In this document: piece by piece, positions 9,701 through 50,664 of the stretch
Layout of the letters: each line of letters begins with the position of its first letter
How positions within the stretch are numbered: the first letter of the stretch is position 1
NCBI GenBank assembly: GCA_035048485.1
Contig: CM068583.1
Location: 50,140,790 to 50,204,789 of the forward strand
DNA: 64,000 nt
Source: Pteria penguin
Lineage: Eukaryota > Mollusca > Bivalvia > Pterioida > Pteriidae
Direction: 5' to 3'
Notes under the pieces: generated by a model
Told to the model about the DNA's origin: nothing
Database searches by the model: none
The model's input: the letters and a program-made list of their open reading frames with translations, nothing else
Position numbers and translations under genes: made by a program

Positions 9701-9867
9701 ATGGCCGTCCATTTAGAAGATTCTAAGTATAAGAATATACTACTTGTGAATGATGTCTATGAACAATGGATGAAGGTGTTGACTGAGCTTGGAATCTCTC
9801 ATTCAGACCTAGCCGTTCACCTACTTACTGTCCACGAAAAATTATGTGCTCAGTGCTGCATTAACAG
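9701..9867 (+). CDS. Gene A exon 1 (N-terminal module)
   Basis: Starts at ATG 9701 (MAVHLEDSKYK) and ends before donor acag|gtaaaa in phase 2. It carries YEQW, LAVHLLTVHEKLC and AQC. About 14 of 32 residues match gene B exon 1 from the Tyr-Glu onward, including W, G, H-L, V-H-E and C-x-Q-C. An upstream in-frame ATG at 9680 is possible; the homology begins after 9701. Confidence 0.75.
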
Positions 9868-15800: not shown

Positions 15801-18800
15801 TGCATCCGTCCTCTGGAAAACTCTAACCTGGGCTATAACTTTTAAACCATAAGAGATAGGACTTGGATATTTCTTAAGTACATTCCTCATGACCAAAGCT
15901 TTCATTTAGTGCCATCTCTTTTTATCTCATGACCTTGACCTTTGACTTTGTCCTACTTCTCAAAACATATTACAGATTTATAAATCTTTGCTTTTAATGT
16001 CTAAAGTAAAAGTATTCTTTTAAAGCATAATACACCGATCCTAGCCAAAGAAATATCATATACCGAAAAAAAAGTTTATTAATGTTAATGACACTAGTTT
16101 TGAGATTTACTATGTGTATGTGTTCCATTGATCTACATTTAAGAAAGTCTGTGCTTCATAGTTAGTTGAAAAAAAAAAACATAATAAAAATCATAATATA
16201 ATTTTGTTCCTTTTGCAGAGAAAAAAGTAATGAAACCATTAAAGGTATGTAACAGTTTGATCCTTTGAGATCTGTATTTCTTGGTGTTAAAAGTGAATTT
16301 TATATGCATTATCAGTTCCATCACAATATTTATACATCGCATGAAAAATTTGTTATTAAATGAAAACATTGAAATCTCAGTTTATGTAATGAAGTTGGTG
16401 GTGATATTTTGTGATAAAATCTCTGGTTAGGGCATTGAATGCATATATTCATATGATTTCCCTTCATACATTAGAACATCAGAAACCAGAAACTGTCCGG
16501 ACTAAATCTCGACGTAAACCTCTTGTGGTCATGGCAAGAAAAAAGATTGATGAAGCTCCATATTCTGAGGATTTGGATGGTACGGAATATGGAGAAAATA
16601 TAGAACAATTTTCAGTTAAATTAGAAGGTATGTGAGAAACTGAATTCAAGTTCTTGCTAATTAAATTTTTCATGGATAATATGAATCAAAATCATAAAGA
16701 GAAATTTCTTATTTAATTTACATTAATAATATTAAAAGGATGCAGTACTTGTTTGTTAGATAGGTACATTAATAATTGTTGTTTTATACTTCATCATTAT
16801 ATGAAAGTGTGTAATGTTTGATTGTAAACAATATACCGGTATTGAAACTCCATTTAAATCAATTTAAGCTCCAGACTATGTGGATGAGGAAGAAAGCGAA
16901 GGAGTTATTCCACCTGTATCAAATGATCTTCATATTCCAGTTCCAACTGGGGGAATTTCTAATGCACAGGGACCTACCCCGCTCTTCATCTCAAAAGTGA
17001 GACCTGTAACTCCTCCTCGTTTACATGCAGGCACAGAGCAGGTAACTCATAAGGTTTAAATATGTCATTCTCTTTTCATTTCATTTTCATTTTCTTTTTA
17101 TATTTGGCATGCATGCTTCACTAATAAAGCCCTTTCAAATACACCAAGTTCATTGATCTTGTGACCTTGATCTGTGATCTATATTTCAAAATTTGCCTAA
17201 TTTCGACTTTGTTGCCGCCAAGGGCACTCATGTTCCTCAAACACATCTTGTTTCCTTTAATTTCTTTACAGTTTAACTTTGGTTACGGTAAGTCAAAGTC
17301 ACGGTTAGTCGAAATTCTGTCTGTCCATGAATATTCTTCGGGTCATAACGTCTTCCTTTTACTTTAGAGGGAGACAATATTTCACACAATTGTTGTCCAT
17401 GATCCAAGGGTGTGTCATGACGTTGAATCAAGGTCATATCTACAAGGTCAAGGTCACAGTGCACTCATTGCCAGAATTCTCGTCTGGGTCATTACTTCTT
17501 CCTTTTATTTTGGAGGGAGATAATATTTTACACAATTGTTGTCATTGACCCAAGGGTATGTCATGACCTTGAAATAAGGACATATGTACAAAGTCAAGGT
17601 CACAGTGTACAGATTGGCAGAATTATTTTGCAGGCCATAACTTCTGTTACATTTCAGGGAGATGTCATGACCTTGAAATAAGGTCATATGTACAAAGTCA
17701 AGGTCACAGTGTACAGATTGGCAGAATTATTTTGCAGGCCATAACTTCTGTTACATTTCAGGGAGATTACGTTTTCCACAATTGTTGTCCATCACCCAAG
17801 AGTGTGTCATGACCTTGAACCAAGGTCATATCTTCAAGTTCAAGGTCACTGCATACACAGGCAGAATTCTTGTCTGGGCTATAACTTCTTCATGTTATAT
17901 TGCAGGGAGATTATATTCGGCAAAATTGTTGTCAATGACCGAAGGCTGTGTCATGACTTTGAAGGAAGATAATATCTTCAAGGTCATTATCACAGTGCAT
18001 ACATAGCCAGAATTCTTTTCTGGGCTGTTACTTCTTCCTATAACGTTGGAACCAAGGTCATAAATGCAATTTGAAGGTCACAGTACTTACATAGCCATAA
18101 TTATTGTCAGGACTATCACTTCCTCCTGTTATTTACAAAGGAGATTAAATTTTGCAGAATTGTTGTCCATGACCCAGGATTTGTCATGACCTTTAACTAA
18201 GGTCACATCTTCAAGGTCAAGGTCACAGTGCACACCTAGTCATAATTCTTGTCTGGGGCAAAATTTCTTCCTGATATGTTGCAGGGAAATTATATTTTAC
18301 ACAATAGTTGTCTATGACTCAAGGGAGTGTCATGATCTTCAACCAAGGTCATATCTAAAAGGTCAAGGTCACAGTGCTGACTTAGCCAGAAATCTTATCC
18401 GGAGTATAACTTCTTCCTGTTATGTTGGAGGGAGATTATATTTTGTACATTTGTTGTCCATGACCCAAGGCTGTGTGATGACCTTGAAGGAAGATAATAT
18501 CTTCAAGGTCATTGTCACAGTGCACACATAGCCAGAATTCTTTTCTGGGCTGTTACTTCTTCCTATAATGTTTGGGGGAATATAATTCGCACAATTGTTG
18601 TCCATTACCCAAGGGTGTGTTATGACCTTGATCCAATATCATGTCTTCAAGATCAAGCTCACAGTGCACCAAAAACCACAATTCCTGTATGGGCCATAGG
18701 TTCTTATTTATACATTTTAGGGAGATTCTATTTGTTGTCCATGACCCAAGGATGTGTCATGACCTTGAACCAAGGTCATTTCTACAAGATTGTTCACATA

Positions 18801-24800: not shown

Positions 24801-27800
24801 ATGTTCTAGAGGGATGTGTGAAGAAGTGCTGTTATTTTTGGTTCCGTTCCGAAATCAAATTTTTGACGTTTTTTTGTACTTGGTAGTTTTAATGCAGAAA
24901 AGAGGTATTTTTTTCTTTTAGTAAACATTGATGCATTAATTTGGTTTAATTTGATCATTTTGATGGTAAGAAATACTACTGCAAAGAAAAAAATTCCAAT
25001 ATTTTATGTTTTGGATTTTTTATGAATTTTTTAAGACTTTCAAGAAAAAGGGGGGTGGGATAATTGGTGTAAACATTTCACAGTTTGAACTTTTTCTTCG
25101 GAACCACTGGCTGGAATTCAATGAAACTTGGCATGCATCAAATACTCAAGGTCCCCGACAAATGTGGTCATCTTTGTCAGGATCCATGAACAGGTGGCAC
25201 CACCACAGACAAAAGTAGGTCACAGAGGGTACCCTCCTTTGACAAACTTCTTATTCAGATCGTGTGCATACAGCGACAAACCGACTGCATAGGAATGATT
25301 TAGAGGCATATGGGAAGAAGTGTTGATATTTTTGGTTCCATTCCGAAATCAAATTTTTGACGTTTTTTTCATTTTTCTTTTGGACTTTGTTATTTTAATG
25401 CATTAAAGAGTTATTATTTTCTTTTAGTAAACATTGATGCATTCATTTGGTTTCATTTAATCATTTCTATGGTAAGGAATGCTGGTGCGAAGGAATTTTT
25501 TCAATATCTGGATTTTTGAATTTTTTATGAATTTTTTAAGACTTCCAAGAAAAGGGGGGGTGGGGGCACAATTTTTTTCATATCTTCAACTTGATCTACA
25601 GAACAACTTGAAGGATTTAGATAAAACTGGGTAGGATGCAAGTACTCATACTCCTTTTCAAAGGTTTTGTTTTTTGTGCGGATCATCCAAATAGGTTAAC
25701 AGATAATGCCACCATGTCTAAAAGTAGGTCTCACAATGGTACATATACAATGTACCACTTGGTAATTGAAATATGGAGAGTAGCGGTTCAAAATCCAGCT
25801 GTGGTCAAAATTTTCTTTTTTTTTTTACACATCTAAATAAGTTTTTAGATGTTTCTCAACACTCAACATATGAAATTAGGAATTTTACGTTTAAGACTTC
25901 CAAAAAAAAAAGGGGGGGTGTTTTGGCCATTTTTCACATTTTCAACTTTTTCTACAAAACTGTTCGAAGGATTTTAATAAATCTTGGTAGAAATAAGTCA
26001 CTTATGATCCTCTTCAAATTCTGTTGTTTTCGTCCAGACCTCTTTACAGGTGGCGCCACCATAGTCAAGAGTAGGTCACAAAAGAGTTCCCTCGTTTAAC
26101 AATATTCTTTTTCATACGGGCTGTATACAGAGACAAACAGAATGCATAGAAAATATCTAGAGGGATGAGTGATTATGTATTGTCATTTTGGTTACCTTCC
26201 AAAATCAAATTTTAGAATTTTTTTCGACATTTCTTTGGACTTGGTGATTCATTGCAGAAAAAAGTGTCATATTTCCTAGTTAATTGATAATGATGATTTC
26301 TTATGGACTATTGTGATCATAATTATGGTAAGGATTGTTACTTTGAAAGAATTTTGTCAATATCTCAATTTTTGGATTTTCTATGAATTTTTTAAGACTT
26401 CCAAATGAGGGTGTATAGGAACGATTCAATCACATTTTTTTCACTTCTGCTGTTATACCACATGAAAGATTTTAATGAAACATGGAATACATGAAGTACT
26501 AAAAGTCCTCTATCAATTTGGTAAATTTCATCCAAATTGGTTAACAGATAATGCCACCATGTCTAAAAAGCAGTTCTCACAATAGTACATATACCACTTG
26601 GTAATTGAAATATGGAGAGTAGCGGTTCAAATCCAGCTGTGGTCAAAATTTTTTTTTCATTTCTTTACACATCTAAATAAGTTTTTAGATGTTTCTCAAC
26701 ACTCAACATATGAAATTAGGCAATTTTAAGTTAGATCTGGACAATATTTGAAACAATTGTTGTTCATGACCCAGACTTGAAATCAGTCAACAAAAGGCCC
26801 CACCTAAAGAAAATGACTAACTTGTTGCCCTGAATGACTTCTTGCAGAGACAAAGGAAATGCTTAATATCAAAATCACCTGAATGGATGTGCAAAAAAGT
26901 GTTGTTTTTTATTCTAGCCTGAAATAAAATTTGACATATTTTCCACATCTGTGTTGACTTAGTCACATTAATGCAAAAATAAATGAATTCTTCCTTCATG
27001 CATGACTGATAATCTAGGTACTCAGGTGAGCGATATAGGCCCACTTGGGCCTCTTGTTTCTGTATTTGAATACTGATGTTTAAAAATTGAAATCCACCCA
27101 CTCAATGTTCAGAGATTAAAAAAACCCTGAATTTTTACTGTTTTTAAAAGAAAAAAAAAAGGTGAATCATGAAAATTTTTTAATACATTATTTAATAAGC
27201 ATTACATTGTTAATGATTTTGTTGTCTCGTTAGTTATCTCAGATAGATGACACAGTTGTAATAAAGGAAGAACCGAAAGATTATGATGAACAAGATTCAA
27301 TATATAATTCTGAATCTCACAGGGTAAGATCAGGTTTCTTCAAGTTCATATTGTAAATTTAATGTCATTTCCTTACTATTGTTACTATTTTGTAATAGTA
27401 AATTAATGAGCAGAAATTTGCAGATTAATCAATATGTTTTCTTTTATTTAAATCTATACAAATACTGTTCTTATACATGTTTTCTTTCAAATATAATTTG
27501 CCATTATTGTTTGGAATGAAAAAAATACCTCAAGTTTTCATGGACTTCAAGTTGAAAAAAATTGATGAAGATCATATGATTTTATGGCAGGAAGTAATAT
27601 AACACTAATGAAAGAATGTTATCACTTTTTACAGGAAGAAATTGTACCGAGAATGATAATGTTCAACAATGAAATTCTGAATGTACAAAATGACCTGGAA
27701 ATGAGTTCCTTGACCCTTAACTGGACAGAAGAAGATTTGAAGAAAGAAAGACAGAGAATGAAATGGAGAGAAGAAAGGAGAAAACAAAGATCACTTCAGA

Positions 27801-28507
27801 AAGAGAAAAACACACCAGAACAAGAGGAAGAACGTAAACGCCGTGAAAGGGAACGTATGAGGAATTACAGAGCAAAACTGAATCCCGATTACAAGGCAAT
27901 GATAAGAGAGAGAGATCGTGAACGGATAAAAAGACGAAGACTGGAAATGTCAGAGGATCAAAAACTACTGGTTAGACAGCGAAATGCAGCACAAAAACGA
28001 ATAAAAAGAAAATTAGCTAAACTTGGTTTAAATTCCATGATGCCAGAGCTAAACTCAGATGGGGTGCCATTGTCATTGGGTATATATGATTTACCAAATA
28101 CCTCTCTAAATTCATCATATTCAGGTATTGAGATACAAGACTCTTCAATGTCCACAACCGAGAATGATTTTTCTAATGATTCTTACGAATCCAATACTTC
28201 TGCAGTTCCAGAAAAGAATCTTCCAGCAACATCGTTTGCTGACTCTTTTACTTCACTTAATACAGCACCAAAACCATTTTCAGCAATTAAAAATGCCTCC
28301 ACACAAAAGGCTTTTACAACTGTGCATGACACTCAAGCTTCTTCCTCACAAGCTGATATTTCAATAGCATCAGAGAAGGATTGTGCCCCATATCCACGAC
28401 CACTCTTGCCTCAGGCATTGAATGCTTTACCTGTGGCTTTTCCCACATTTGTGAACTCATCCGAAATCTCAGCTTCTCCTGTAGTTGTATCAAAAGGTAG
28501 TTTGTGA
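9701..28507 (+). CDS. Gene A: predicted nuclear DNA-binding protein with N-terminal module, putative SUMO motifs and STPR-like repeats
   Basis: The spliced model joins 9701-9867, 16219-16244, 16475-16627, 16869-17041, 21509-21565, 27234-27323 and 27635-28507 (512 codons plus stop; phases agree at every junction). An optional 39-nt exon, 13807-13845, also fits. Residues about 15-52 form a module with YEQW, HLLTVHE and C..C. A basic patch (KSRRK, ARKK) and acidic linkers follow. IKEEP at 202-206 and VKLE near 112 match the psi-K-x-E sumoylation pattern. Residues 253-275, 282-304, 305-327 and 328-350 are arginine-rich 23-residue units like the STPR domain of silkworm FMBP-1. The Ser/Pro-rich C-terminus may be an activation or interaction region. 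I infer a chromatin or transcription role; no named orthologue is recognised. It shares its N-terminal module and exon phases with gene B, which converges on it. Confidence 0.72.
9932..10368. mobile_element. Foldback/MITE with ~180-bp near-perfect terminal inverted repeats
   Basis: The left arm starts taatttctattgaaacggtc and the right arm ends gaccgtttcaatagaaatta. The arms stay nearly identical in to the central 50-60 bp. The direct repeat aattatatcaactt lies at 9918-9931 and 10364-10377; because it overlaps the arm end, the exact duplication length is ambiguous (about 9-14 bp). Long inverted repeats with a 9-10 bp duplication would suit a Mutator-type MITE; this is inference. Confidence 0.65.
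10610..13806. mobile_element. Foldback element with ~310-bp arms, interrupted by a nested insertion
   Basis: The right arm (about 13540-13806) is the reverse complement of 12993-13170 followed, moving outward, by 10610-10734. Shared blocks include ttaaggaatgttgca, caggtgtaaagca, gtagcttgtagtgctaacag, cattaaggatgtgtttttta and aaaatggc. The left arm is split by the element 10742-12985. The loop is about 370 bp. No transposase was found. The outer right end coincides with the start of the optional gene A exon at 13807. Confidence 0.6.
10742..12985. mobile_element. 2.2-kb hAT-like non-autonomous transposon with 7-bp target duplication
   Basis: The terminal inverted repeats begin CAGAGACATATATACACAG and end with the matching complement (...tatatatgtctctg); they extend imperfectly about 35 bp. 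TCAGTAT flanks both ends exactly (10735-10741 and 12986-12992). The CAGnG start is hAT-like, though hAT normally duplicates 8 bp. The interior has no recognisable transposase; the open frames at 11222-11513 and 11662-11934 are short and unassigned. Confidence 0.65.
13807..13845 (+). CDS. Optional gene A exon at the edge of a foldback element
   Basis: It fits phase 2 on both sides and reads SLGTSAKERRTGK before donor aaaaag|gtaaat. The acceptor would be the less usual tttttagag. The stronger upstream tttttag does not keep the frame. The acceptor lies in the arm of the foldback element, so this may be an exonised end or a false call. Gene A is also in frame without it. Confidence 0.3.
15425..15561. 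mobile_element. Possible pogo/Tigger-like MITE remnant
   Basis: The stretch ccggataatcagagcccggattaacagagcatcactg|ta reads on the minus strand as CAGTGATGCTCTGTTAATCC, the style of Tigger-type termini at a TA target. The left end is unclear. Confidence 0.3.
15685..15755 (-). mobile_element. Degenerate SINE body fragment
   Basis: Matches parts of the SINE body (aatgagggatctttgaagtg and gacacaggaccttggttta, compared with cagtgagggatctttaacgtg and gacacggggcctcggttttta at 4943-5010). The tRNA-like head is not preserved. Confidence 0.45.
16219..16244 (+). CDS. Gene A micro-exon (26 nt)
   Basis: Flanked by a strong acceptor (ttccttttgcag) and donor (aaag|gtatgt). It has one leading base that completes the split codon of exon 1, eight codons EKSNETIK, and one trailing base completed by the next exon. 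Gene B exon 2 has the same phase pattern. Confidence 0.6.
16475..16627 (+). CDS. Gene A exon with basic nuclear-localisation-like patch
   Basis: Reads HQKPETVRTKSRRKPLVVMA then RKKIDEAPYSEDLDGTEYG and FSVKLEG, between acceptor cattag and donor gaag|gtatgtg (phase 1). The SRRK and ARKK clusters could act as a bipartite nuclear signal, and VKLE fits the sumoylation consensus. Confidence 0.7.
16869..17041 (+). CDS. Gene A acidic/proline-rich linker exon
   Basis: Starts in phase 1 after aatttaag and reads APDYVDEEESEGVIPPVSND, then VRPVTPPRLHAGTEQ, with donor cag|gtaact in phase 0. No fold is recognised. A clear counterpart was not seen in gene B. Confidence 0.65.
17150..18820. repeat. ~145-bp tandem repeat with aaggtcaaggtcacag blocks
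   Basis: About eleven degenerate units share gggagattatattttacaca, ttgttgtccatgacccaagg, tgtgtcatgaccttgaacca and aaggtcaaggtcacagtgca. One near-perfect local duplication repeats the 104-bp phase at about 17562-17665 and 17666-17770. It lies in a gene A intron. Open frames here are by-products of the repeat. Confidence 0.75.
19075..19680. repeat. ~150-bp tandem repeat (four units)
   Basis: Units share gtaaatggtttctgggctct, gtgttatccttttcacctag, agtcaagataccatacatac and actccccatgg...gatgaggatgatccctat. It starts with a tctgtctgtctg run. Confidence 0.65.
20575..21110. repeat. ~145-bp tandem repeat (four units)
   Basis: Units share actcaagtacctttcattat, aaaccaaattgggtatatgc, ttacttt...gaggatgaaccc and gtcaaaggtcaaggtcacag. 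It resembles the neighbouring tandem repeats in style, not in sequence. Confidence 0.6.
21509..21565 (+). CDS. Gene A short exon (19 codons)
   Basis: Phase 0 at both ends, between aatttcag and donor cca|gtaagt. Reads CIQKEDNIKKASLSHETEP. It parallels gene B exon 44381-44440, which also opens with a Cys segment, has NIK and ends in a Glu-Pro before a gtaag donor. Confidence 0.65.
22075..24310. repeat. 51-bp minisatellite, about 41 copies, with a 689-codon open frame on the minus strand
   Basis: The unit on the plus strand is tctataagtacagacacatc + cctttctattagaattatat + taaggtctaca (51 bp = 17 codons). Variant units differ at one cluster: gacacatcc, gtcacttgcc or gccacttgcc. The minus frame repeats VLIDVDLNIILIER followed by DVS, QVT or QVA, from 24144 to TAA at 22077-22075. 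It lacks an ATG at the array start (the frame opens at GTG). A one-base loss near 24148-24152 (ccttct for cctttct) shifts the outermost copies out of frame. It lies inside a gene A intron. I regard it as a satellite with fortuitous coding potential, not a proven gene. Confidence 0.8.
24513..27056 (+). mobile_element. Helentron-like (HINE-type) repeat, copy 1
   Basis: Begins AGCTCACCTGAGCC with a short palindrome, and ends CTCAGGTGAGCG...GGCCCACTTGGGCCTCTTG. The subterminal inverted repeat (GCTCACCTGAG / CTCAGGTGAGC), the 3' hairpin GGCCCA..TGGGCC and T-rich flanks fit Helentron-associated elements. Inside are 4-5 degenerate units of about 500 bp with caggtggcgccaccacag, agtaggtcacagagggtacc and catacagagacaaaccga. 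A near-identical copy lies at 29349-31912. Confidence 0.65.
27234..27323 (+). CDS. Gene A putative SUMO-motif exon (30 codons)
   Basis: Phase 0, between tcgttag and donor agg|gtaaga. Reads LSQIDDTVVIKEEPKDYDEQ then DSIYNSESHR. IKEEP-K-D is a classic psi-K-x-E-P acceptor context. Gene B has an exon of the same length and phase with IKQEPEDSD. Confidence 0.72.
27635..28507 (+). CDS. Gene A last exon: STPR-like arginine-rich repeats and Ser/Pro tail
   Basis: Starts phase 0 after ctttttacag with EEIVPRMIMFNNEIL. Four 23-residue units follow: TEEDLKKERQRMKW..., TPEQEEERKRRERERMR..., NPDYKAMIRERDRERIK... and SEDQKLLVRQRNAAQKR.... This is the periodicity and Arg/Glu pattern of STPR domains, which bind DNA as tandem helices in insect FMBP-1. 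The remainder is Ser/Thr/Pro-rich. The frame ends at TGA 28505-28507, but a usable donor (aaaag|gtagtt, 28497) two codons earlier means a further exon cannot be excluded. AATAAA at 28539-28544 supports an end here. Confidence 0.72.
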   Translation, partial: EEIVPRMIMFNNEILNVQNDLEMSSLTLNWTEEDLKKERQRMKWREERRKQRSLQKEKNTPEQEEERKRRERERMRNYRAKLNPDYKAMIRERDRERIKRRRLEMSEDQKLLVRQRNAAQKRIKRKLAKLGLNSMMPELNSDGVPLSLGIYDLPNTSLNSSYSGIEIQDSSMSTTENDFSNDSYESNTSAVPEKNLPATSFADSFTSLNTAPKPFSAIKNASTQKAFTTVHDTQASSSQADISIASEKDCAPYPRPLLPQALNALPVAFPTFVNSSEISASPVVVSKGSL

Positions 28508-28538
28508 TTTGTGTATTTGTAATTGTATTAAGGCCAAA

Positions 28539-28544
28539 AATAAA
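28539..28544 (+). terminator. Candidate polyadenylation signal of gene A
   Basis: AATAAA about 30 nt after the TGA. A 3' UTR this short would be unusual, so a longer UTR is also possible. Confidence 0.35.
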
Positions 28545-37680: not shown

Positions 37681-40122
37681 CTGGCCTCTCACCATAAAAA
37701 GCCGAGGTGTTTCGAAAAATTTTTACGGGAGCGAAGATGACATAGGTCAACCTCACTCCCGTATGTTTTATGAATATTAAATTAACGTCTGACCAAAAAG
37801 CTCGAACAGAGCTTCCTCCCACGGTATAAAAGAAACAGGCGTAGTCATGCAACCGTGACATTCCATCGAAGACACGACAAAGGCAACATGGCGTCACAAA
37901 CAGAAGTACATGTAATTATCTCTATATCATTCCTTTTTTGTTTCATTTTTTTGAGTAACATACATAAATAATACAAAGGTAGTTATAACAAAAGATCACA
38001 TGATGCTGCAATGTTGTATGCATTTGCCACGAAAAGGCCACCGTGCGTAACGTAAATAGACAAATTTTAAAGTTGAATGAACAAATTATATTACATGTTC
38101 TAGTTATTTAGATATTATAATATGACCAGGTATTACATATATCATAATGTACAAATAGTATCGTGTGTTCAGTTGTACTTGTAACGAACCCAACCCTCTC
38201 CGTGCAAATGTAAAAAGGCCAATAAGATATACCGGTAAGTAATTTGAAAACTGACGATATTCAGGTAATACTATCTTTTCTCCAAATAACAAGAGCCAAA
38301 TTCCAATACTCCACAACAGACCACACATTTGGAAAGCATAATATTATTTATACATGTATACTTTACTGTAAATTAAATACACATCAGTTTACACACATCT
38401 TTTGGAGTGTTCGAATGAGAAACATACAAACAGGAAATGGTATAGATTGAAGAAAAACTCTTCAAAATTATACACAAGATTCTGTTCACGATCCTACATA
38501 ATGGGTGCATACTGAATAATGTTATTTGTAAATTATAAGACTCTTCTGACGTCTGGATTCACAAAGGTATTATTTTAATTTATTTCATTTTGTTTTATTT
38601 ATTTTATTTCAAGTACAAACATTTTTCATCAATAATAGTACGGAAACAGAAAACTATATGACACTTTTGTGATAATTTATATTGTTATTTACGGCTAGTA
38701 CGGTGTTCATACAAATTCAAGAACTAGTAACATTTTTAGCTAAACAACCTGCGTTTTTGAGACACGAATGCCCCAGTTGCAAATAAATATAGCTGTCAAT
38801 GTTCAACCCCCGGGGTCACACGATGACGCTTAGGGAATATACTAACTGTTGAATTTTGGTAACTGTAACAACATTCTATTGAAAGTTATTAGGCACTGCA
38901 GAATTACGGAGGTACATACAGACGGACGGGAACGACCGAACGCTTTTTTGCCCAAGATCAGACATGTACAAAAAGCGGAAGGGGCAAGCGCAGGTGTTAA
39001 GAGAACGAAAAATGTTTAAAAATCATTTATTGATTAGAATTAATAATAATGCTGTTTGTTTGTAACTGTTCGACTTGACATGGATCCCCATTCATAGAAT
39101 TATACAAAACATTGTGGAGCTTCTAACCCATCCATCACTGTTATCCCATTCCCCCTCCCCCAAGGAAAGACTAGGTAAAAAAAGAACTTATGCTGTTTGA
39201 AGAACAAACAGCTTTTTTCTTCTCTCCATCATTTCTGTCTCTGTAAATGTAAAAATACTAATAATCGAACACTCTGAATGCAACCCGGGTAGAATATGGA
39301 AGACGGGTTTAAGGTGTTAAGAGAACGAAAAATGTTTAAAAGTCATTTATTGATTAGAATTAATAATAATGCTGTTTGTTTGTAACTGTTCGACTTGACA
39401 TGGATCCCCATTCATAGAATTATACAAAACATTGTGGAGCTTCTAACCCATCCATCACTGTTATCCCATTCCCCCTCCCCCAAGGAAAGACTAGGTAAAA
39501 AAAGAACTTATGCTGTTTGAAGAACAAACAGCTTTTTTCTTCTCTCCATCATTTCTGTCTCTGTAAATGTAAAAATACTAATAATCGAACACTCTGAATG
39601 CAACCCGGGTAGAATATGGAAGACGGGTTTAAAGGATAAGGCAAGAAGCAGTTTAGTCAGACCAGAACCCTGCGTCTCCTATTTGCAGTGGATCATGTTA
39701 TGAAGTGCAATAACATATGCATGTTTACACTATACATGTAGACTTGCATCCGTATTGTATAAGATCAGTAAAAAATGAAATTATAGACACATAACTAAAT
39801 TTTTGTGAAGGAATTATATAAATGTAAAAATGTAAATAAAGTGCTGTAAGTGTTAAATATCTAAGTAAAGTACATAGTGAGGAAAAAAAGTTTTCATACG
39901 GTTTGTACAGCCATGCTGACCGTCCGTGCAGGTCGCCGCCAGTTAAATGTCACGGTTTGTCGATTTGACATTTCTTTTTTGTGGTAAGCGAGAGCATTTA
40001 GGTCAGACGTTCATTTAGTATTCATAAAACATACGGGAGAGAGGTTGACTTATGTCGACCTCGCTCCCGTAAAAAAATTTCGAAATATTTCGCCTTTTTA
40101 TGGTGAAAGGCCAAAGAGGCTT
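37678..40122. mobile_element. 2.4-kb element with ~120-bp terminal inverted repeats
   Basis: The left end, ggcctctcaccataaaaag..., and the right end, ...ctttttatggtgaaaggcc, match in inverted order for about 120 bp, including gtctgacc/ggtcagac and cgggag blocks around an internal palindrome (acgggag...ctcccgt). The interior has a TATAAAAG at about 37825 followed by an ATG at 37888 (MASQTE...), the 320-bp tandem duplication, and no recognised transposase. Long inverted ends suggest a Mutator-like non-autonomous element. No clean target duplication was found. Confidence 0.5.
38992..39631. repeat. 320-bp tandem duplication, two nearly identical copies
   Basis: Copy 1 38992-39311, copy 2 39312-39631. 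I could see one substitution (aaaatcattt versus aaagtcattt). Each copy begins aggtgttaagagaacg and ends aagacgggttta. The identity implies a recent event or an assembly duplication. Confidence 0.85.
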
Positions 40123-41518
40123 TAAGCCAAAGTCAAGATACATATCTGAGTAAAGGGGAGTATATATGACAAGGTTAACTGATAAATGTTTGAAATGCAG
40201 CCAAGATCTGAATTTAATGATACTATGATGACCTTGAAATTTGACACATGACCTTACAGGGATTTTCTACCCTGTTCCAAAAGGAGTAAGGAAAATATCT
40301 GCATGATCCAATATCCTGATACCTTTGTTTATGTGAAATTAGAGATCAATTAAAACTAAGAACAGAACTAAACTGATTAAACATTACAGAATGACAAATG
40401 CGTCAAAAATAATAAACAACCTGTATTTGTAAATCCATCATTTATACACTGCTGTGCAGTTTATCTTTATAAACATTAAAATATTAATACATTGCACATC
40501 GATATATCAATTGCTACAAAGATATGATGTGTATGGTATATAATGTGTATGGTAAAATGCATGTGATAAAACAGAAACTTAAGTCAGAAGATTTTATCCT
40601 CATATACATTTTACAACTGGTTCAAAACATACTCTCTTGAAAACTGGTCCAACTGGGATACTTTACAACACATTCAAATCCCAACAAAGTATTGGAATCT
40701 ACAATATACACACAAGTAATACAGACAGAGGAAACTCTAATTGTAAATGATACAATTACTGTACAGATAAAGGACAATACCATTGCATTCTTTAATTGTA
40801 TACTTTTCTCCCAGATACTGTACATTATAAAGTATGACATAAATTCATAAATTGATCCATAGATTTTACCAGGGTTTGAGGTAGACAGCCATCTAATTTC
40901 ATCTTCAATATGACACAAAAATGTCCGTTTCAAAAGGCATGATTCCTGTCTATTAAACAGAAAACAATGATTATTCGGACAAAAGGAGGGATGTAAAATC
41001 TCCAAAATGACTGACACAAATTCAGATAACTTCACAGATGATAATGGGAAATGATGAACAAATTACACATACAGACGGACCTTTCATAATATGACTGTTG
41101 TTTTACATTTATATAGCAATTAAACTGTGATATCTTGTCATCATGTAAAGCTGGGCAATGGTTATCAGAGATATCTAATCTTCAACTACAGAATATAAAA
41201 AAAAAATTATGATAGAATTTAAAAAAAAAAAGATTTTGGATTAAAGGTATTGTACATGTACAAAATGTTTTCAATAGAAGATTAAAAGGATTTTGGGTTG
41301 AAAGGTAAAAAGATTAAGGATTGAATATAAATAGATTTAAAATATACTTCAAGATCAGAGAGTTTTGTATCCATCAAGGAATTGAGATATCACAGTCTGG
41401 TTGTAGGTTTTATAATAAATTAATGCAGAACATTAGATATACATGTAAATGTATATATACACACACTTGAATATATATTGCACAATTACTGGAATCAAGA
41501 TAAGACATGTGACACAGG
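40123..41518 (-). other. Probable 3' flank/UTR of gene B; no other gene seen
   Basis: The minus strand holds a 137-codon open frame (41035-40622) with hydrophobic stretches but no splice or family support. It lies directly downstream of the gene B stop and may be 3' UTR. Confidence 0.35.
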
Positions 41519-42493
41519 CTAACTTTCTAATGATGTCTCACTGTGTGATAAACATTCCTCAGTATGTGAAGCACTTTGTTTTGATTCAGTCTTAACTTCT
41601 CTTTTAATGATATCCCCTGTTTCCTTAATAGACACATTACAGATCTGTTGTACAGAGCTGTTCTTTTCAGTTGAGATTTCTACAGGGTAGCTACTATCTC
41701 TCTCTTGAGTATCTTGGTTCTGACCTTCTTGATTCGCTATTTCTAACACGTTTCTCATTTCATTCAAAGTGCCTTCCTCTAAATCAGAAGATATTTCAAT
41801 ACAGTCTTCTGAAGTCTCTTCTTGACAATTACTGCTACACTCTTTGGGTGGAAATGATCCATATTCTATGAGATGATCTATAACCCGAGTGGAGTAAGGT
41901 TTTGGTTTCGGTCTACCTCTGGGTTTATTCTCCAGTCTCTCTACTATACTCATACTGCCACCGTTCTTGGCTTGCAATTGTTCTAAGTAACTTTTCCGAA
42001 AGCTTCTGATTGTACTTTCATTAATGTGTCTGTTCATTAATTTGGAGAAATATTTTGCTGCTTTGGCACATCCTAGATCTATTGCATATTTTGCTAAAGT
42101 TGCTTTACTTTCTGGAGTATATTTTTGATACTCCCCTCTTTTTCTTCTTTGTCCTGGAGGTAAAGGAGGGGTTTCAGGTTTTGGTGGAGTAGGTACTTTT
42201 GGTCTTCCTCTTCGTTTTGATTTTATTTCGGTAAGGAAGTCAACATTTTTCCCTTGGGTCTGTGATACATATTTCTTTTTAAACTCGCGCACAGTACTTT
42301 CTCTGACTTGTTTATTCAATTCTTTGGAAAAATGTCGTACAGCTTTAGCAATTCCATTTTCAATAGCAAATCTTGCAATTCTGGCTTTATCCTCTGGTGA
42401 ATATTGTTCATAATAACCTCTTTTTTTCCGAACACTTGCAACTGGTGCCTTATCAACAGATATCCCATCATCTATATATGAGTATTGACTTTC
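41519..42493 (-). CDS. Gene B last exon: duplicated HTH domain plus AT-hooks
   Basis: Acceptor tttttcttag, phase 0, beginning ESQYSYIDDG. HTH copy 1 starts KKRGYYEQYSPEDKARIARF and ends ESTVREFKKKYV. The AT-hook KRRGRPKVP and a Pro-rich linker (PTPPKPETPPLPP) follow. HTH copy 2 runs from RKRGEYQKYTPESKATLAKY to ESTIRSFRKSYL. AT-hook KPRGRPKPKP is next. The acidic tail carries IKRE and VKTE and ends SETSLES with TAG at 41521-41519. Confidence 0.82.
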   Translation of the reverse strand, partial: ESQYSYIDDGISVDKAPVASVRKKRGYYEQYSPEDKARIARFAIENGIAKAVRHFSKELNKQVRESTVREFKKKYVSQTQGKNVDFLTEIKSKRRGRPKVPTPPKPETPPLPPGQRRKRGEYQKYTPESKATLAKYAIDLGCAKAAKYFSKLMNRHINESTIRSFRKSYLEQLQAKNGGSMSIVERLENKPRGRPKPKPYSTRVIDHLIEYGSFPPKECSSNCQEETSEDCIEISSDLEEGTLNEMRNVLEIANQEGQNQDTQERDSSYPVEISTEKNSSVQQICNVSIKETGDIIKREVKTESKQSASHTEECLSHSETSLES

Positions 42494-45400
42494 CTAAGAA
42501 AAATACACAAACTACTTTTTGAACTTTCAGTGTTAATATATTGGAATGCATAAAAGTTCTTTTCATAAAAAAGTAATGTATCCAGCTAAAGTAAAAAAAA
42601 AAATTATAATCAGAACTTTATACAACTGCTCAAGAACATGTAAGTTAATTGTTATTCTTGAATTATCATTACCTGTGGAACATCTTCTAATCCTTGCATA
42701 TATGCAGTGTCAGCCTCAGATGACATGGTTCCAGTGTAACCATTATCCAGGAAGGTCATGGGATGTGTTCTCTAAAAATGTTGCAATAATGCATCAATTA
42801 AATGCTACAAAATATGCAGCATATTATCATACAAAAATAGAATAGAAATTTTGTTTCATATGAGAGTCATGCAGCTCAGTCTTACATGTATTAAAATGTT
42901 TGTACTCTGTATCTAACACACAAATTTTAAATTGATAGTTGCAGTAAAGCTTTAATAAAAAAGATAGATGGGAACAAATAAAACCTGGACTTATCAAGGC
43001 TTGTGTATTTTAGCCAAATTTCAGTGTTGATAGCCGATTGTCAATTTCATGATATTTTTTGAAATAGTGCAATTATCCTTCTTTATATATTTGAACATAT
43101 TTCTATCTGTGAATTCTGAATGAAATAGAATTGTGCTTACACTGCTTATTAGTATAAATCCAATAAAAACTAGATGTTTGTCCATCACCTGGACTTATTA
43201 TAACCATGACAACAAATTTGGTATAGAATAATGTGTATGTGTTGTACTTGTTATGGTGAATAATTCTTGATTCATAATAATGTGTGTGTGAACAAGCACA
43301 TTCATCCTGGCAAGCTAAAAATGATACCGTTGTCTCATACATTATAAGAAAAATCTGCTCTCTTAACCAAATTATTATTACAAGGTCAAAGTTCAAGGTC
43401 AAGGACACTAGGTCAAATGACTTGGTATCAAAATGTAGAACTTGTTATGGTAATTGTGTGTGAGAAATATGAAAGCTCTGTCCCTTATACTAAAAGAGAA
43501 ATCTGTCTAACCAGCAGTTACACATAAAAAGAAAGACATTTGATCTTGTGACCTTGAATTTGGTCTTGTGTTAATATTTCGGTTAATAAGATCTTTAAGT
43601 AGATCCCTCTTACAGTATAAGGGATAGGTCTTTCATATTTCAGACAATTTCATCATAACAAGTACTACATTTTGATACCAAAGCATTTGATGCTTAAAGA
43701 ACTTCTTAATTGGACCAACAGACACACAGAAAGATGGATAGACTGACAGGGTAATTCCTTTTTACCCCATCCCCAAACTTTGGGTATAATAAAAGTAAGA
43801 AGCTGTACAAGTAGAAGATCTGAGTTAGAGAATTTGATCTTCATATGTGTAACTGAAGGTGTTTTACTTGTAAGAATATTTACCTCTGTCACTTCCATGC
43901 TGGACGTATTGGACATATCTGAATCTTCTGGCTCTTGTTTTATTGAAACATCTATTCTATCAACCAAAATTTCCTAAGAATCAAAATATCTATCATGTTA
44001 ACAGAAATCATAAAAAAACCCCACTAAAACCTCTTTGTATTCTTAATTAGTTAAACGATTAACATGACATTATATGATAATAACACATTGCAAACATTAA
44101 TCTATAGTGTAGGAATGAATCTTTTACAAGACTAAGTTAAGTCTTGAGACTTACTTTGACTTTTGTATGAGCAGAATCTGGATCATTCACTTCTTCTGCC
44201 ATATAAACATCTACATGGTCTGTGGTAGATCTGGGCTAAAATGTAATCAGCTTTATTTTACAAAAATCTCACAGTCAATTATGATTTTCCTTATTAATGA
44301 CAATTATGTTAACAGGATAGTACATTTTGTTTGTTTGATCTTTTTTTTTGTAACAGAAACTATAATACTAGCATTCTTACTGGCTCAAGGTCGGTCTTTT
44401 CTTCCTTAATGTTGGCATCAATGTTATTAACCATGCATTCCTGCAAATGTTAAATCTTAAGATGATTGTTAACATATATAAACAAATACTGATAAATATC
44501 AAAATGGTAAAATCTGATTTAAAAGATTAATGTGAGGTATCTGATTAAACATAAAGATCATACTTGGTTGATTCTTATGTTCCCCATGGTGTTAGATGGG
44601 TGCCTACTGTTTTTCAAGGTCATGGGTCACTGGTTAAGAACAGAGATATTGTTGGGATACTTTGTCCAACTCACAATTGCTACATACTTCAACAGAATTA
44701 ATTCATACTTTGAAGAATGTTTCTTATAGGTTGTGGTGAGTCATTACCTCTATCTAAGATTAAGGTCACTGTCTACAGAGAAAATATTTACTTACATGAC
44801 CCATTATTTCCTTATATTTCATAAGAATAACTTCATATTTGGTACAAATGTTTCCAATGGAAAGGCTGAAATTTTCGTACAGAAAGGCAGAGAGTAAAGA
44901 TCTTCATTTCAGGGCCATTTACTGAAGGTCAAGATCAATGACAACATACATGTAGATAAAATCGTTTTGTCTGGCCCATGATATTTACAAGGATCATCAA
45001 AAGAAGTTCATGCTTGGAAGAAACATAATTGATTGGAAAGACTAGTGTTATGACCTTAAAGAAAGGTGATATATTATGGGTCATGGTCACTATCAAATAA
45101 GGTGAATTGTAAGGTGCTTTGAGATAGTGAACTGAAATCATCAGGAGATTTCCTTAAGAAAAAATAAAGACTTCAATTTTTATTGTGTCTGACATAATTC
45201 TACAAGAGTCATTGCCCTTTTTAGAAAGTTGTTTCCCTAAAATTTGTGACAGCAAGCAGGGTTTGACATTAACTTTTGAAAGAGGTGGTCCAGTTGGACA
45301 GCCTCAAGGAAATCATGGCTGTCCAATTTCAAATCTGAGTGGTCCATTTTTGTATCATGTAGCTGAAGTGATTCAAGTTATGCTATAATAGACTACAAAA

Positions 45401-48400
45401 GATTAAGTAATGTTTTAATAAGAAAGAAAACTACCAAATCTGTGGTAAATCTTCACAGTATCAGTTAAAATAGCTGCATTGCAGCATGTACGACAAGTTA
45501 GCATGAAACCTCATCCCAACACAGAAGATTTGGTATACACACTGATAACTGTTAATTTCACAATTTACACATTACAATTTAATAACAAATAATCATGAGA
45601 AAACTGTGGTAAATCATCACAGAATATTAGGTACATGAGGCAGGTCAAGTTGGTGTGAAACCTTGTCACAACTTATCAGAAATGGTATTTTATATCCCCT
45701 TCTTTCCCCTTGTGGCCCTTTATCGTAAACCCAAAATTGAAAAGTAATATCAGTTACTTGTTACACTACTAACAACCTGCAGGTAATATCCATATCCAAA
45801 CACTGCAACGGTCCAAATGCAAAACAGCATCACTCATCTGTTGCCATTAATTTCAGCAACATAAAATGATATGATTGACAGCATTATGACACTGGTTGAT
45901 TTCAATATATATTACAAGAATATTATCTAGTTATCATTGGGTATGTTCAAACGATACTTTTTTTTCACATCACTCATATCTATGAAAGTGGCTTTCAATA
46001 GTTTCTCTTAAAATCTTTTTGGCATTACGATGCACTGTTGTTTTGTTCATACAACCCGTAATACTAATTGCTATTGTTGAATACTAGTTACTGAGCTTAT
46101 GTTCATCAACTGATAAATAGCAGTTTGATAGCATTCACAGTGAAATGATTCAGATATGCCAAAAAATTGTAAAAGCTCAACAGCAACCTGTCCAGTCGGG
46201 CTATCTATGGAAATTTTTATCCATCCACTACTGATTTTTACTAAACAATGTCAATCTGATGTGCCTTAAAGTGGAACCCTGATGCAAAGCAGGCGTTGCT
46301 TTTGTTGGATAATTTCTAATGTACACTAGTAGTTCTGTGCACCATCAAATAAACAAGAAAGCCTGAGACGATTTAATTCATTGTGTATGTTTTGGAATTA
46401 TTTGCCCTTTCATTAAATCTTAGCAGGACTTTAAAATACCGATTCATGTACATTAAATCAAAAACTTTATAAAAGATTCAAATAATTTTACTTTTCTAGA
46501 AATATGACACAGACATTTTCCTACTGTACTGTAAAGATACACTAGAAAGTATTTGAATTAACATGAAGATAAAGCCATAATATGAAAAACAATAAAAAAC
46601 CCCCAAAATTTATTCCAGTTTATCATCTAATGCCTCTTACAACTGTATCTGTGAATGTGCCACTGTATCACCTTCAGCTGTATACAGAGAGTGTCAAAGG
46701 CTGTTACTCTTGGAAAATTTTAGGTGTCACAATTATTTCGCTTCATGCAAATTTACACAATGGCATTTTCTTGTGCCAAGTTTGGTTGAAATTCTTATAC
46801 AGTACAGTCCGGGTGGAACTTTGAATGCCCACTGTCCACAGTAGGCAGTCCACCTAAAATTTCAGTGGGCATTAGGAGTGGATATTTACCTGAGCTATCA
46901 AGCTGTCCACTTACCTGTATGTTAATTCTAACTGACTCTTACAATAATGTCCACTGTGTCCAGTGGACATTTTTAATGCCCACTCTAAAAATGCCCACTG
47001 TGACCAGTGGGCAAATTAAGTTCCACCTGGACTGTACTGTAGCTATTTAGGAGGAGATGCGATAAAGAGGTTAAAAATTTCTAAACATCAAGGGCCTCGA
47101 CTCTTGAAGATTTTAAGTGTCACAATTATTTCCCTTCATGCATATGATGATGTCTCTTTGTGCTAAGTTTGTTTGAAATCTGTACAGTGTTTAGAAGTTG
47201 TGATGACAAGGTTAACAAAATGTAATTCAACACAAATTCTATATGTCCAGGACCATAATTCTTGCAAAATTTACAACAGTCTCCTTTCCTACAAAACTAC
47301 CTACACATGATGATCATCCTTCCCACCCCACAAAGTTTGATTGACATTTAATGGGTGTGGACAGCTAAATAGATGGACATTGTGATTCCTATATATCCCC
47401 ATATTTAGTTTGTGGGGTGAATAATAATTAAATATGAAGTAATATTATAAACTTTTTAAAGTACTTTTGTATTCATATCTATGATTACATTTTGCTTTTG
47501 AGAGAGGTTATGACACACAGACTCTATACGTCTCCTAGCTTTCACTTTTCTTCTTCCACTTCCAATAATTTTCCCAGGTGAAGAAACTTGGTCTACTTTT
47601 GTAACATCATTCTCCACAGGCAGCAATGTTGTTGCAACGTTGACTGATATTTCACAAACTTTTTCTTTTGGAGTATAAAATGTTTCTTTATCACTTTCTG
47701 TGAATATTTCTCCATAAGAATTATGGTCTGTTTCCTCTTTAAAAGATAAAAAGAAATTATTAACATATTTGAACTAAGCTAGTTATAATTAAATAAAGAC
47801 AACTTTTTTATTCTTTTAAGGTACATGTAGAACATTCATGCCTTGATACCATTAAGTACAAAATGTGCTACACCTAAAAAATCACCTCAATGGTTGGATG
47901 TCGTAAGAAATGGGGAAGTCATCCAAATCCTATTATGCATCAAAACTGGTGAAACCAAAGACTCCACAAAGTAAAGCACCCCCTCACATGACCTTGACTT
48001 TTGTCTTTTAAAATCACTTGAGTTTTTCACATCATCAGAAAAAAATAAAAGTAAAAAAATCCTCCAAGGAAATTTGTGAAGTGGAGAGTGCTCACAAGGA
48101 TTTCCATTTAATACTGGGTAAATCCCATCTGTGACCTACTCACATGGACTTAGGTTGTTGACCATAAGAAGTTTTTCCATCTATCACCAGTACATAAAAA
48201 GAAGTACATACCGGTATGTCTTAATAAACTTTACAAAAACTGTCCACAAGGGAACATGATAGATGACTGAACTACTTAATGAAAGGAGAAATAAACCTTC
48301 AATTAAAGGAATTCCAGGACAGACACAGCAATGTTTCTACATTGTATATCCTGTAGGCAACAAATTGTGCAAGGGGTTAATGAGGAGCTTCAAAGATGAG

Positions 48401-50664
48401 TACATTACAATCATATGCATGTCAAGTTATGTTAATTTCAAGGATCAAAGTACATTGTACATCTTGACATTGACATGTATAAACATTTACCAACTGATTT
48501 AATGCATTATTGTTTTTTTTAATAAATAACAATATTAATTCCAGTAAAAAAAAACTAATAAGCTACAAATACTGACCTAAGTTACTGTTTTGAGGTATTG
48601 GGGAATGACAAGTTTTTCCACTAAATGGGCTGAAATGATAAAATATAATTTTTCAATGTTTAGAAACATACAGTTTATGGGCATTCTAGGCCTATTCATT
48701 AAATAAGCTTAAGTTTTACATCCAAGCCACTTGATTTACACTAGATATACGTAAAACCATGGACTTGTTGAGATTTGAACCCATGACTATCCAAGTAAAA
48801 GACGAACATATTAACACTTACCTAGTATATGGTAAGCATATATAATATTGAAGGTATGTAACTTTATAACTGATACAACTTTTTCACATATATCTTGCTC
48901 CCTTGACATATGGTTTTTTCTCAGTCCAAGTATTAACATTAATTATGATGAAAATCCAAGCGAAAAGTAGTTGCCTGGCATTTGGTCTTTGAGGCATGTT
49001 AAATTCATGTTTTGCTAACAACATGGTATATGAGCTTATCTCCACAAAGTTAAGAAGCCCAGTGGACAATTCATCACACAGTCAGTTTAAGTTACCCAAA
49101 AACTGTGTCAACTATTTCTTCATTTTAAATGTCCTTATTTATAAAGTTCTAAATAAAAATTCAGTTTATCAATTATTTCATTATTTTGTACATTTACATC
49201 AGAGTTTACGAAAAGTGCCGGATTGCCGGTGATCTCCGGAAGTTTTAAGACCTCAGCTGGACAAAGTGTCCTGTGGATTTTTAACACTGGGAATAATAAA
49301 ATTCTAATTCATATTTTTCTTTTATTAAACTAAAACTCGTATTAAATCATTCTTAGCTGATTTCTTTTGTCTTCGATATACGCGGTATTTATTGGATTGT
49401 AGCAACTGAATCTGGACCAGACTTCTGTTTTATATTTCATGTACTCATTTCCGTTATACGAATTTGTCCTTCTGTCATTCTTATCTTAATTAAAATCGCA
49501 AGATGTCATGGCCGATTAAATGGTCAGTTAAAGCCTCATCATCTGGTAAGCAGGTAAAACGGACGCCAGATAATGATACTGAAATTCCTGAAAGGAAAAA
49601 GCCTGCTTGAAAATTTAATCCCCAGTGGTTAATCGACAAGAAGTGGCTGCGATACGATAATAATAATCAGTTAATGTTTTGTGATCCGTGTACTGAGTAC
49701 GTGAAAAGTGGTAAAAACAAAGGTAACTATACTGGCAGTTTTGTCAGTGGTACCGCAAATTTTAAAACATCTGCACTAACAAATAATAATGATTAAACCA
49801 GTTGTATATTGAATTTGTTGTTTTAAATATGTCCGGTAGATTTGGGCCTTGTCCGGGGGATTTGGGGAAATTTCATCAATCGACAAGACACAATGTCCTG
49901 TGGATTTTTATGCTCATTCGTAAACTCTGTACAGGGATGTACATGTAATTAGCGATTCTCTCCAATGTTGATGAAAGTTTTATGAACACATTATTTGATG
50001 TGTTTTCATCAATGTCAAGAAAATATAACATTCATGTAAGAAAGATATCTGAAAATACCCATCTGCCCCATTTCACATGAAAACTCGAGTAATATAGACT
50101 TCTGGTTCTGGTTAACATCATTTATATACTGTGACGTCAGACTTCAAACATTAACGTTATAATTAAAACCCTGGGAAAAATAGCATTTGCACAACTTCTA
50201 ATATCATATTAAGGAGATAAAGGACTGAAAAAATTCCATCAAGCTGTTTATGGATTATGCTTTATGGCATACATCGCATAATCTTAGTTATGCAGAAATA
50301 TCTTTTTGGCAGCAAATTGTGTATGTTAGATACCAACATTATATAGAAAAATTGTGCGAATATTCTTACGGCACTTTAAAAGGAAAGAGGTGCAGAGCAT
50401 GCAGTTTCAATTTATCCAAATTCAAAAACAAAACAAAATTTGTATTTTTACCATTAAAACAAAATAAGCTGAATTTAAATCTGCTCACAAAAAAGGGATT
50501 TATGAGACGTGGCAATTACAGTACCTTTCTCGACATTGCTTGCAATGCTCTTCATGTACTTCGAAAAGATGTGATAGAACCTGACCAGCAGACCCCCATT
50601 TCTGCGACAGTTTGACCCAAGATTCGTAAGCAGGACCAAATATTACTCCTCTTATTTCAGCCAT
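41519..50664 (-). CDS. Gene B: N-terminal module, putative SUMO motifs, two transposase-derived HTH domains each followed by an AT-hook
   Basis: The model joins, in minus order, 50664-50525, 48629-48577, 47736-47489, 44440-44381, 44235-44155, 43973-43884, 42771-42673 and 42493-41519. This gives 581 residues with all phases consistent. Residues 13-44 form the YESW...HLFEVHEEHC module shared with gene A. A basic GRRKVKARRR patch follows. IKEE (158-161), IKQEP (205-209), IKRE and VKTE fit the sumoylation consensus. Residues 280-333 and 374-427 are two copies of a KRGxYxxYxPE...ESTxRxF(K/R)K domain. RGRP AT-hook cores follow at 352-355 and 449-452. This HTH-like domain is familiar at the N-termini of pogo/Tigger-like transposases in cnidarians and molluscs; no DDE catalytic domain follows. 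A nuclear DNA-binding role is inferred. Confidence 0.78.
42673..42771 (-). CDS. Gene B exon 7
   Basis: Phase 0, 33 codons, acceptor catttttag, donor cag|gtaatg. Reads RTHPMTFLDNGYTGTMSSEA then DTAYMQGLEDVPQ. No motif recognised. Confidence 0.7.
43103..43795 (-). mobile_element. Reverse copy of the agctcac-type repeat in a gene B intron
   Basis: The minus strand carries atttgacctagtgtccttgac, gtataagggacagagctttca and gataccaagtcatttga, matching the tandem units at 33770-34340. The border near 43790 is approximate. Confidence 0.45.
43884..43973 (-). CDS. Gene B exon 6 (IKQEP motif)
   Basis: Phase 0, 30 codons, acceptor gattcttag, donor gag|gtaaat. Reads EILVDRIDVSIKQEPEDSD and then NTSSMEVTE. 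Same length, phase and motif as gene A exon 27234-27323. Confidence 0.74.
44155..44235 (-). CDS. Gene B exon 5
   Basis: Phase 0, 27 codons, acceptor cattttag, donor aaa|gtaagt. Reads PRSTTDHVDVYMAEEVNDPD then SAHTKVK. Acidic linker without a known fold. Confidence 0.7.
44381..44440 (-). CDS. Gene B exon 4 (IKEE motif)
   Basis: Phase 0, acceptor catttgcag, donor cca|gtaaga, reading ECMVNNIDANIKEEKTDLEP. Counterpart of gene A exon 21509-21565. Confidence 0.7.
44441..46797. other. Gene B intron 3, right-hand part; repeat traces only
   Basis: Diverged ~150-bp units with aaggtcactgtctacag and gggtcatggtcactatcaa at 44600-45130 and a mollusc-type interspersed stretch at 45230-45380. No exon supported. 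Confidence 0.4.
46800..47039. mobile_element. 240-bp mariner-like MITE with TA target duplication
   Basis: The ends CAGTACAGTCCGGGTGGAACTT and AAGTTCCACCTGGACTGTACTG are inverted repeats flanked by TA on both sides (46798-46799, 47040-47041). The interior has repeated tgcccactgt / ccagtggac blocks. The CAGT..TA pattern is that of Tc1/mariner-pogo non-autonomous elements. Confidence 0.75.
47042..47488. other. Gene B intron, no feature seen
   Basis: No supported feature between the MITE and exon 3. Confidence 0.4.
47489..47736 (-). CDS. Gene B exon 3 with basic patch
   Basis: Starts with two bases completing a Glu codon, then ETDHNSYGEIFTESDKETFY and later GSGRRKVKARRRIESVCHN. The upstream splice (ttttaaag) fits the phase. 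The 3' border at aat|gtaatc is the only phase-0 GT that preserves the whole frame but is a weak donor, so this end is uncertain. Confidence 0.6.
47737..48576. other. Gene B intron 2, no feature seen
   Basis: AT-rich with no supported feature. A short plus-strand open frame at 48263-48502 lacks splice context. Confidence 0.4.
48577..48629 (-). CDS. Gene B exon 2
   Basis: 53 nt, one leading and one trailing base, reading PFSGKTCHSPIPQNSNL between acceptor catttcag and donor ttag|gtcagt. A second in-frame acceptor (catttag) lies 9 nt inside, so two isoforms differing by three residues are possible. Confidence 0.6.
49200..49929 (+). mobile_element. hAT-type element remnant carrying a TTF-like zinc-finger fragment
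   Basis: CAGAGTTTACGAA (49200-49212) and TTCGTAAACTCTG (49917-49929) are 13-bp inverted ends with the CAGnG start of hAT elements. Inside, tgtcctgtggattttta occurs twice in direct orientation near both ends. No clean 8-bp duplication was found. It lies in gene B intron 1 in opposite orientation. Confidence 0.55.
49503..49796 (+). pseudogene. ZNF862/hAT-like N-terminal zinc-finger fragment
   Basis: From ATG 49503 the frame reads MSWPIKWSVKASSSGKQVKR, an in-frame TGA, then KFNPQWLIDKKWLRYD, QLMFCDPCTEYVKSG and FVSGTANFKTSAL, ending at TAA. The KFxxxWL...WLxYD...MxCxxC...F..GtxnFktsaL order is that of the TTF/ZnF N-terminus of hAT-related transposases. The stop and the missing His ligands make it a relic. 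Confidence 0.6.
50525..50664 (-). CDS. Gene B exon 1 (N-terminal module)
   Basis: ATG at 50664-50662 (MAEIRGVIFG). It ends ...CKQCRE before donor ag|gtactg, phase 2 exactly as in gene A exon 1. The frame stays open to an earlier in-frame start at 50745; 50664 is chosen because it matches the position of the gene A start relative to the module. Confidence 0.72.

Follow-up and report, generated by a model that had tools for sequence, protein, structure and literature searches.

Introduction

Transcription factors usually retain their DNA-binding domain and vary the remainder of the protein. In KRAB, ZAD, SCAN, and BTB factors, a common N-terminal effector module precedes DNA-binding ends that vary, mostly within one DNA-binding type, the C2H2 fingers. 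Here we describe two neighboring genes, A and B, in a window of 64,000 nucleotides of Pteria penguin (C4:50140790-50204789; the assembly has 49 contigs and 838 Mb; positions given without a contig are those of the window). A and B resemble the above factors in their common N-terminal module before differing ends, but their module has no library match and their two ends differ in type. With a probability of about 0.58, we consider A and B to be paralogous nuclear regulators, probably transcription factors, which form an inverted local duplicate in which an N-terminal chassis was kept and the whole terminal DNA-binding exon differs.

In the Tc1/mariner paired-like domain, an AT-hook-type motif sits between two helix-turn-helix (HTH) units, PAI and RED, which are not near-duplicates of each other. 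According to PMC7827188, the bipartite domain of the Sleeping Beauty (Tc1/mariner) transposase comprises PAI, RED, and a GRRR AT-hook. Expansions of HTH-Psq genes are reported in Aplysia, Biomphalaria, and Octopus in PMC10027918, which deals with transposon-derived HTH-Psq/CENP-B transcription factors. The STPR proteins, silkworm FMBP-1 and human ZNF821, carry in their C-terminal part basic repeats, arranged in tandem and each exactly 23 residues long (PMC4821344, PMC13362889). DNA binding is reported for the STPR of FMBP-1 (PMC4821344) and stated for that of ZNF821 (PMC13362889), and the Glu 4–Arg 9 salt bridge of each FMBP-1 repeat is reported to be important (PMC4821344).

Results

Gene models of A and B

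Gene A (+ strand, ATG at 9701) has five exons encoding 499 amino acids (aa), and gene B (− strand, first base of ATG at 50664) has six exons encoding 542 aa. The two genes lie tail-to-tail, with ca. 13 kb separating their stops. An earlier note on this DNA had placed such a pair at 9701..50664, and its coordinates were correct, being the first bases of the two ATGs. Both spliced models are open from the ATG to a single stop, and every inner border is GT/AG.

Similarity between the N-terminal exons

The first exons of A (9701..9867, +; YEQW...HL..VHE..CAQC) and B (50525..50664, −; YESW...HL..VHE..CKQC) both end in phase 2 and were recognized by the similarity of their modules, which have 14 identities in ca. 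32 columns, including Y-E-x-W, H-L, V-H-E, and C-x-Q-C. This is the count given in the earlier note. The Smith–Waterman score between the two modules was 70, a value reached by none of 20,000 shuffles (mean 20.3, maximum 52), and the best other of the 1,520 open stretches of at least 25 aa in the window scored 45 against the A module and 36 against the B module. A profile built from the two modules found nothing further above noise in the window (next E 0.42). The AlphaFold model of the module, computed from two sequences, has three helices (pLDDT 72).

We also searched the whole genome with each module, scoring only the best candidates (three for the A module; five for the B module, of which three gave matches). 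Among the candidates scored, the A module matched itself, B (E 0.88), and C3:66315201 (E 1.19), the last of which was judged to be a chance match. The best non-self match of the A module in 838 Mb was therefore, among these candidates, B at a distance of 41 kb. By simple arithmetic (100 kb of 838 Mb), the probability that a chance best match lands no farther than 50 kb from A is ca. 1.2e-4, or about 1 in 8,000. Among its scored candidates, the B module matched itself, a frame with a stop on C2 (E 0.08), and A (E 0.65). The frame at C2:74325101 (L002, 1501-1623) shows 45% identity with the B module (VIF.P, LSQRWG, HCKQC), contains an internal stop, and lacks HL..VHE; it is probably a chance match inside a transposon relic, as judged by eye from another frame.

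No convincing third module was observed genome-wide with either query (few candidates scored) or in 200 kb of flanking sequence, 2.5% of which is N (best module match E 0.77), and the window held no convincing further copies. The module profile matched eight PDB chains (E 1.9e-6 to 2e-4). In the two alignments displayed, these values were sums of stretches of at most 7.4 bits on designed repeat proteins, and the single stretches were not significant; these matches were rejected.

Chance similarity of the two modules is very unlikely, given the shuffling result and the finding that the best genomic match of the A module is B; translated comparison of the loci (tblastx) and the search with the B module were weaker. 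These results suggest that the N-terminal exons of A and B are likely of common descent. The duplicated family proposed in the earlier note is retained to this extent, and what we found looks like a pair, with no convincing third module.

Intron phases and middle exons

The intron phases are 2, 1, 0, and 0 in A and 2, 1, 0, 0, and 0 in B, so that the agreement noticed earlier for the first three introns extends to four. Four equal phases would arise by chance with a probability of 0.012–0.019 under two phase models, one of them with uneven phase frequencies. In both genes, the fourth exon (27234..27323 in A; 43884..43973, −, in B) has 90 nt and phase 0/0 and encodes IKEEP (A) or IKQEP (B), which we take to be a possible SUMO site. 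The common 30-codon exon of the earlier note was thus found again, with a modest match: the local score between the two exons was 36, which was reached by 6 of 300 and 109 of 10,000 shuffles, weaker than the match between the modules.

The remaining inner exons were defined by the spliced models. Those of A are exon 2 (16431..16627, phase 2 to 1) and exon 3 (16869..17041, phase 1 to 0), the latter encoding an acidic and then a proline-rich stretch. Those of B, on the − strand, are exon 2 (48577..48629, 53 nt, phase 2 to 1), which is the least certain exon, exon 3 (47465..47736, phase 1 to 0), and exon 5 (42673..42771, 99 nt, phase 0/0), which has no counterpart in the A model.

To evaluate the exons by codon usage, we trained the test on both last exons and used open stretches within introns as the control; the test is biased towards exons because the introns used as the control had also served to train its model of non-coding sequence. 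The control stretches reaching the exon score were 42/62, 0/33, 0/53, and 0/347 for exons 1–4 of A, and 4/99, 107/1,175, 0/9, 0/347, and 2/279 for exons 1–5 of B. Codon usage therefore backs exons 2–4 of A and exons 3–5 of B, including both fourth exons, and gives some backing to exon 1 of B. It gave no backing to exon 1 of A, nor to exon 2 of B, for which it was undecided.

The last exon of gene A

The last exon of A (27635..28507, +; stop at 28505-28507, AATAAA at 28539) encodes four basic 23-residue repeats followed by a Ser/Asn-rich tail, as defined by repeat analysis and by a relative, P0001. The basic stretch of 101 residues consists of one 23-residue unit, a 6-residue spacer, and three further 23-residue units. 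Lag 23 was the best of lags 5–40 in the 69-residue core (z 4.4, 0/2,000 shuffles), and for all 101 residues it gave z 3.4 (1/2,000 shuffles). The same lag was the best of lags 5–40 in P0001 (z 4.3, 1/2,000 shuffles).

P0001 (406 aa, on an ENA contig of 69,512 bases) was the one relative among 7,223 candidates in a protein search with this exon at E up to 1. It is identical to A at 85 of 101 positions in the repeats, 10 of 26 in the preceding stretch, and 45 of 151 in the aligned tail.

We set A against FMBP-1 by repeat period and a residue criterion. In all four units, position 10 is basic and position 12 is Arg, whereas the Glu 4–Arg 9 pair occurs, by eye, in one of the four. We therefore call the repeats STPR-like, not STPR: the STPR-like repeats of the earlier note hold as to the 23-residue period and fall short as to this pair. 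A shares with FMBP-1 and ZNF821 the C-terminal position and the repeat length, and differs from them in the rarity of the pair, in the 6-residue spacer after repeat 1, and in having no match to a C2H2 finger in a library scan of exons 1, 2, 3, and last. No STPR model was among the library matches.

The last exon of gene B

The last exon of B (41519..42493, −), defined by unit alignment and by a relative, P0002, encodes an HTH-like unit, a linker, a second HTH-like unit, an AT-hook, and an acidic tail. The two units have 58 residues each and are 50% identical (mutual alignment score 205). The 36-residue linker between them contains the AT-hook RRGRPK and a proline stretch, and carries PKPETPPLPPGQ. 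Unit 2 is followed by a second AT-hook, PRGRPK, and then by the acidic tail. No AATAAA or ATTAAA was present downstream of the stop before 40796.

A protein search with this exon gave one relative in 1,118 candidates at E up to 10: P0002 (330 aa, ENA contig of 17,010 bases), which is identical to B at 48/58 positions in the first unit, 31/36 in the linker, and 53/58 in the second unit; the tail has 51/133 identities. The order HTH-like unit, AT-hook, HTH-like unit is present in both proteins. Of the duplicated HTH and AT-hooks described in the earlier note, P0002 has the duplicated HTH-like unit and the hook between the units; the second hook is not retained there.

AlphaFold predicted three main helices per unit, weakly (pLDDT 49). 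Neither unit matched Psq or CENP-B in Pfam at E up to 10, where HMMER filters drop most matches above ca. 0.1, and B matched no Pfam HTH family, transposase, integrase, or catalytic domain. B resembles the Tc1/mariner paired-like domain (PMC7827188) in having two units, HTH-like in B, plus an AT-hook-type motif, but its units are near-duplicates and no catalytic domain was matched; we claim no membership. B may also resemble the HTH-Psq/CENP-B factors of PMC10027918 in its predicted three-helix units, which come from the model of pLDDT 49, and is unlike them in lacking a family match and a transposase or integrase part, and in forming a pair, not an expansion, within the regions searched. Neither of the terms AT-hook and GRPR occurs in the pogo papers PMC7386202 and PMC7325037.

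Comparison of the two ends and family searches

The last exons of A and B did not align with each other (z −0.7), in agreement with the earlier note, which had held them to be different. In both, the conservation relative to P0001 or P0002 is concentrated in the basic regions, which argues for selection on these regions. Since each last exon is conserved in its ENA relative, A and B both look like functional genes.

Libraries were scanned with single exons; the scans covered A exons 1, 2, 3, and last and B exons 1, 3, 4, and last, with PHROGs restricted to the two last exons and NCBIfam to the last exons and modules. No credible match for A or B was obtained for these exons in Pfam, NCBIfam, PHROGs, or PDB sequence searches. 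FosF was matched at 16.1 bits, where the cut-off is 280, and P0001 matched POP1_C (18.2 bits against 24.3, E 0.003); both were regarded as chance, as were other weak library matches. Scans of viral and prokaryote contigs confirmed no relative. The literature surveyed contains no description of a module with two such ends. The earlier statement that no named family has this layout agrees with the library searches made, and the novelty of the layout holds for the libraries and literature surveyed; public mollusc proteomes may already list A and B among their uncharacterised proteins.

Other features of the window and its flanks

Intron 3 of A contains a 51-bp minisatellite of ca. 43 copies (22127-24305), most of which is covered by 696-codon open frames on both strands. 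Between the two genes lie an array of ca. 146-bp units (34434-35962; a 430-bp period was also read) and two tandem copies of a 320-bp unit (38992-39632, 99% matches), indicating a recent duplication. A 60-bp tandem array (52715-57869, ca. 5 kb; 120- and 180-bp periods were also read) begins ca. 2 kb past the start of B.

Upstream of A, 2978-3382 gave a weak FLYWCH-like match below the cut-off (E 0.05). At 4872-5439, two inverted copies have nearly the same peptide frames, and one overlaps a tRNA-like match at the gathering score (29 bits, E 0.058), perhaps a tRNA-derived short element. ARAGORN predicted no tRNA. Frames on the − strand at 8775-9215 and 51885-52355 resemble, by eye, the end of a non-LTR (long terminal repeat) retrotransposon reverse transcriptase, and gave no credible Pfam match.

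The sequence directly after the window end (from C4:50204790) is N for ca. 5 kb. Long open frames in the flanks are C4:50081826-50084318 (−, 831 codons), C4:50243945-50245429 (−, 495 codons), and C4:50114270-50114950 (+, 227 codons); the start of the last resembles, by eye, that of a pogo/CENP-B-type transposase.

Discussion

If A and B are paralogous regulators, the chassis would consist of a small helical N-terminal module, which may bind a metal or a protein partner via the candidate motif H-x4-H-x3-C-x2-C, and of a linker with the short exon carrying the likely SUMO acceptor IKEEP/IKQEP, ending at a phase-0 intron. A would bind DNA through its basic 23-residue repeats, presumably helical, in the fashion of the FMBP-1 STPR, and B in a bipartite manner through two HTH-like units flanking an AT-hook. 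For genes transcribed as modelled, we infer that the terminal exon would set the place of binding, while the common effector part would take the same partner to different DNA sites. The putative DNA-binding end is confined to a terminal exon that follows a phase-0 intron, so that replacing it would take no more than a new phase-0 terminal exon, and one such change could re-aim the protein.

Several observations weigh against this reading. Genome-wide, the A–B match has an E value of 0.65–0.88, and the stop-bearing C2 frame outranks A in the search with the B module. The exon-1 pair was missing from the tblastx matches between the two loci up to E 1. No duplication of the exons is left at the DNA level, so that the event was probably old. 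Exons 2 and 3 of A and B do not align; common descent of the whole chassis therefore rests on exon 1, the weak exon 4 match, and the phases. As a layout the chassis has support; in sequence, this support is strong in exon 1 only. Exon 1 of A has no codon-usage support, as noted above. No relative with the N-terminal module was found in the searches made. One of these, a database search with the B module, gave one candidate, which was not scored, and it could hardly find isolated small exons because the database appears to consist of open reading frame calls, with the 46-residue exon outside the length window. The AlphaFold model of the module places all four His/Cys residues in one helix and shows no metal site, and a fold search of the PDB with it gave nothing up to E 10. 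The fold search with the HTH-like pair of B gave 15 matches, none credible (best E 4.1), although this says little because the model had a pLDDT of 49.

A different origin of the shared exon would be its capture: the first exon alone, perhaps with its promoter, would have been copied onto an unrelated neighboring gene, and the phases and IKxEP would be coincidental or convergent. The strong alignment is limited to exon 1, exons 2, 3, and last being unaligned, and IKxEP is short within an exon whose match is modest (109/10,000 shuffles), which speaks for capture. However, chance would rarely give four matching phases in a row as well as a 90-nt exon placed alike in both genes, and we regard capture as unlikely, though deserving serious attention. 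The two ends could also have diverged extremely from one ancestral terminal exon with no swap; both are basic and each follows a phase-0 intron. Their lack of alignment (z −0.7) speaks against this, and a very fast phase would have had to be followed by slow evolution because each end is strongly conserved relative to its own ENA relative. We consider such divergence very improbable.

The layout could in part be an artefact of joining if one or both splice models were wrong, exon 1 being part of a separate short transcript or additional exons being present. The models are based on genomic sequence; intron 1 of A spans 6.6 kb; codon usage fails to support exon 1 of A and exon 2 of B; and P0001 and P0002 cover the last exons only. 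On the other hand, both first exons start with ATGG, finish in phase 2 at a GT, and match each other, which makes wrong models of this kind quite unlikely in our judgment. As for the swapped C-terminal cassette proposed in the earlier note, the two ends are indeed unrelated by alignment, and a swap is one candidate origin beside capture and divergence, no outgroup carrying the N-terminal module having been found. Descent of A and B as paralogous regulators with differing terminal exons is still the reading we prefer. Its more specific form is a tentative proposal, which we think less likely than not: A and B would be nuclear regulators without a previous name that share a new N-terminal module, and the neighboring duplicates would have exchanged their complete DNA-binding end through replacement of one phase-0 terminal exon, which would have re-aimed one effector chassis at other DNA sites in a single step.

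A and B are adjacent, both of their ends are apparently conserved elsewhere, and the module and the HTH-like unit of B have no credible Pfam family. Duplicates in which the remainder of the protein is retained while the DNA-binding end differs completely would offer a natural experiment, and a clean one, on the re-aiming of a regulator.

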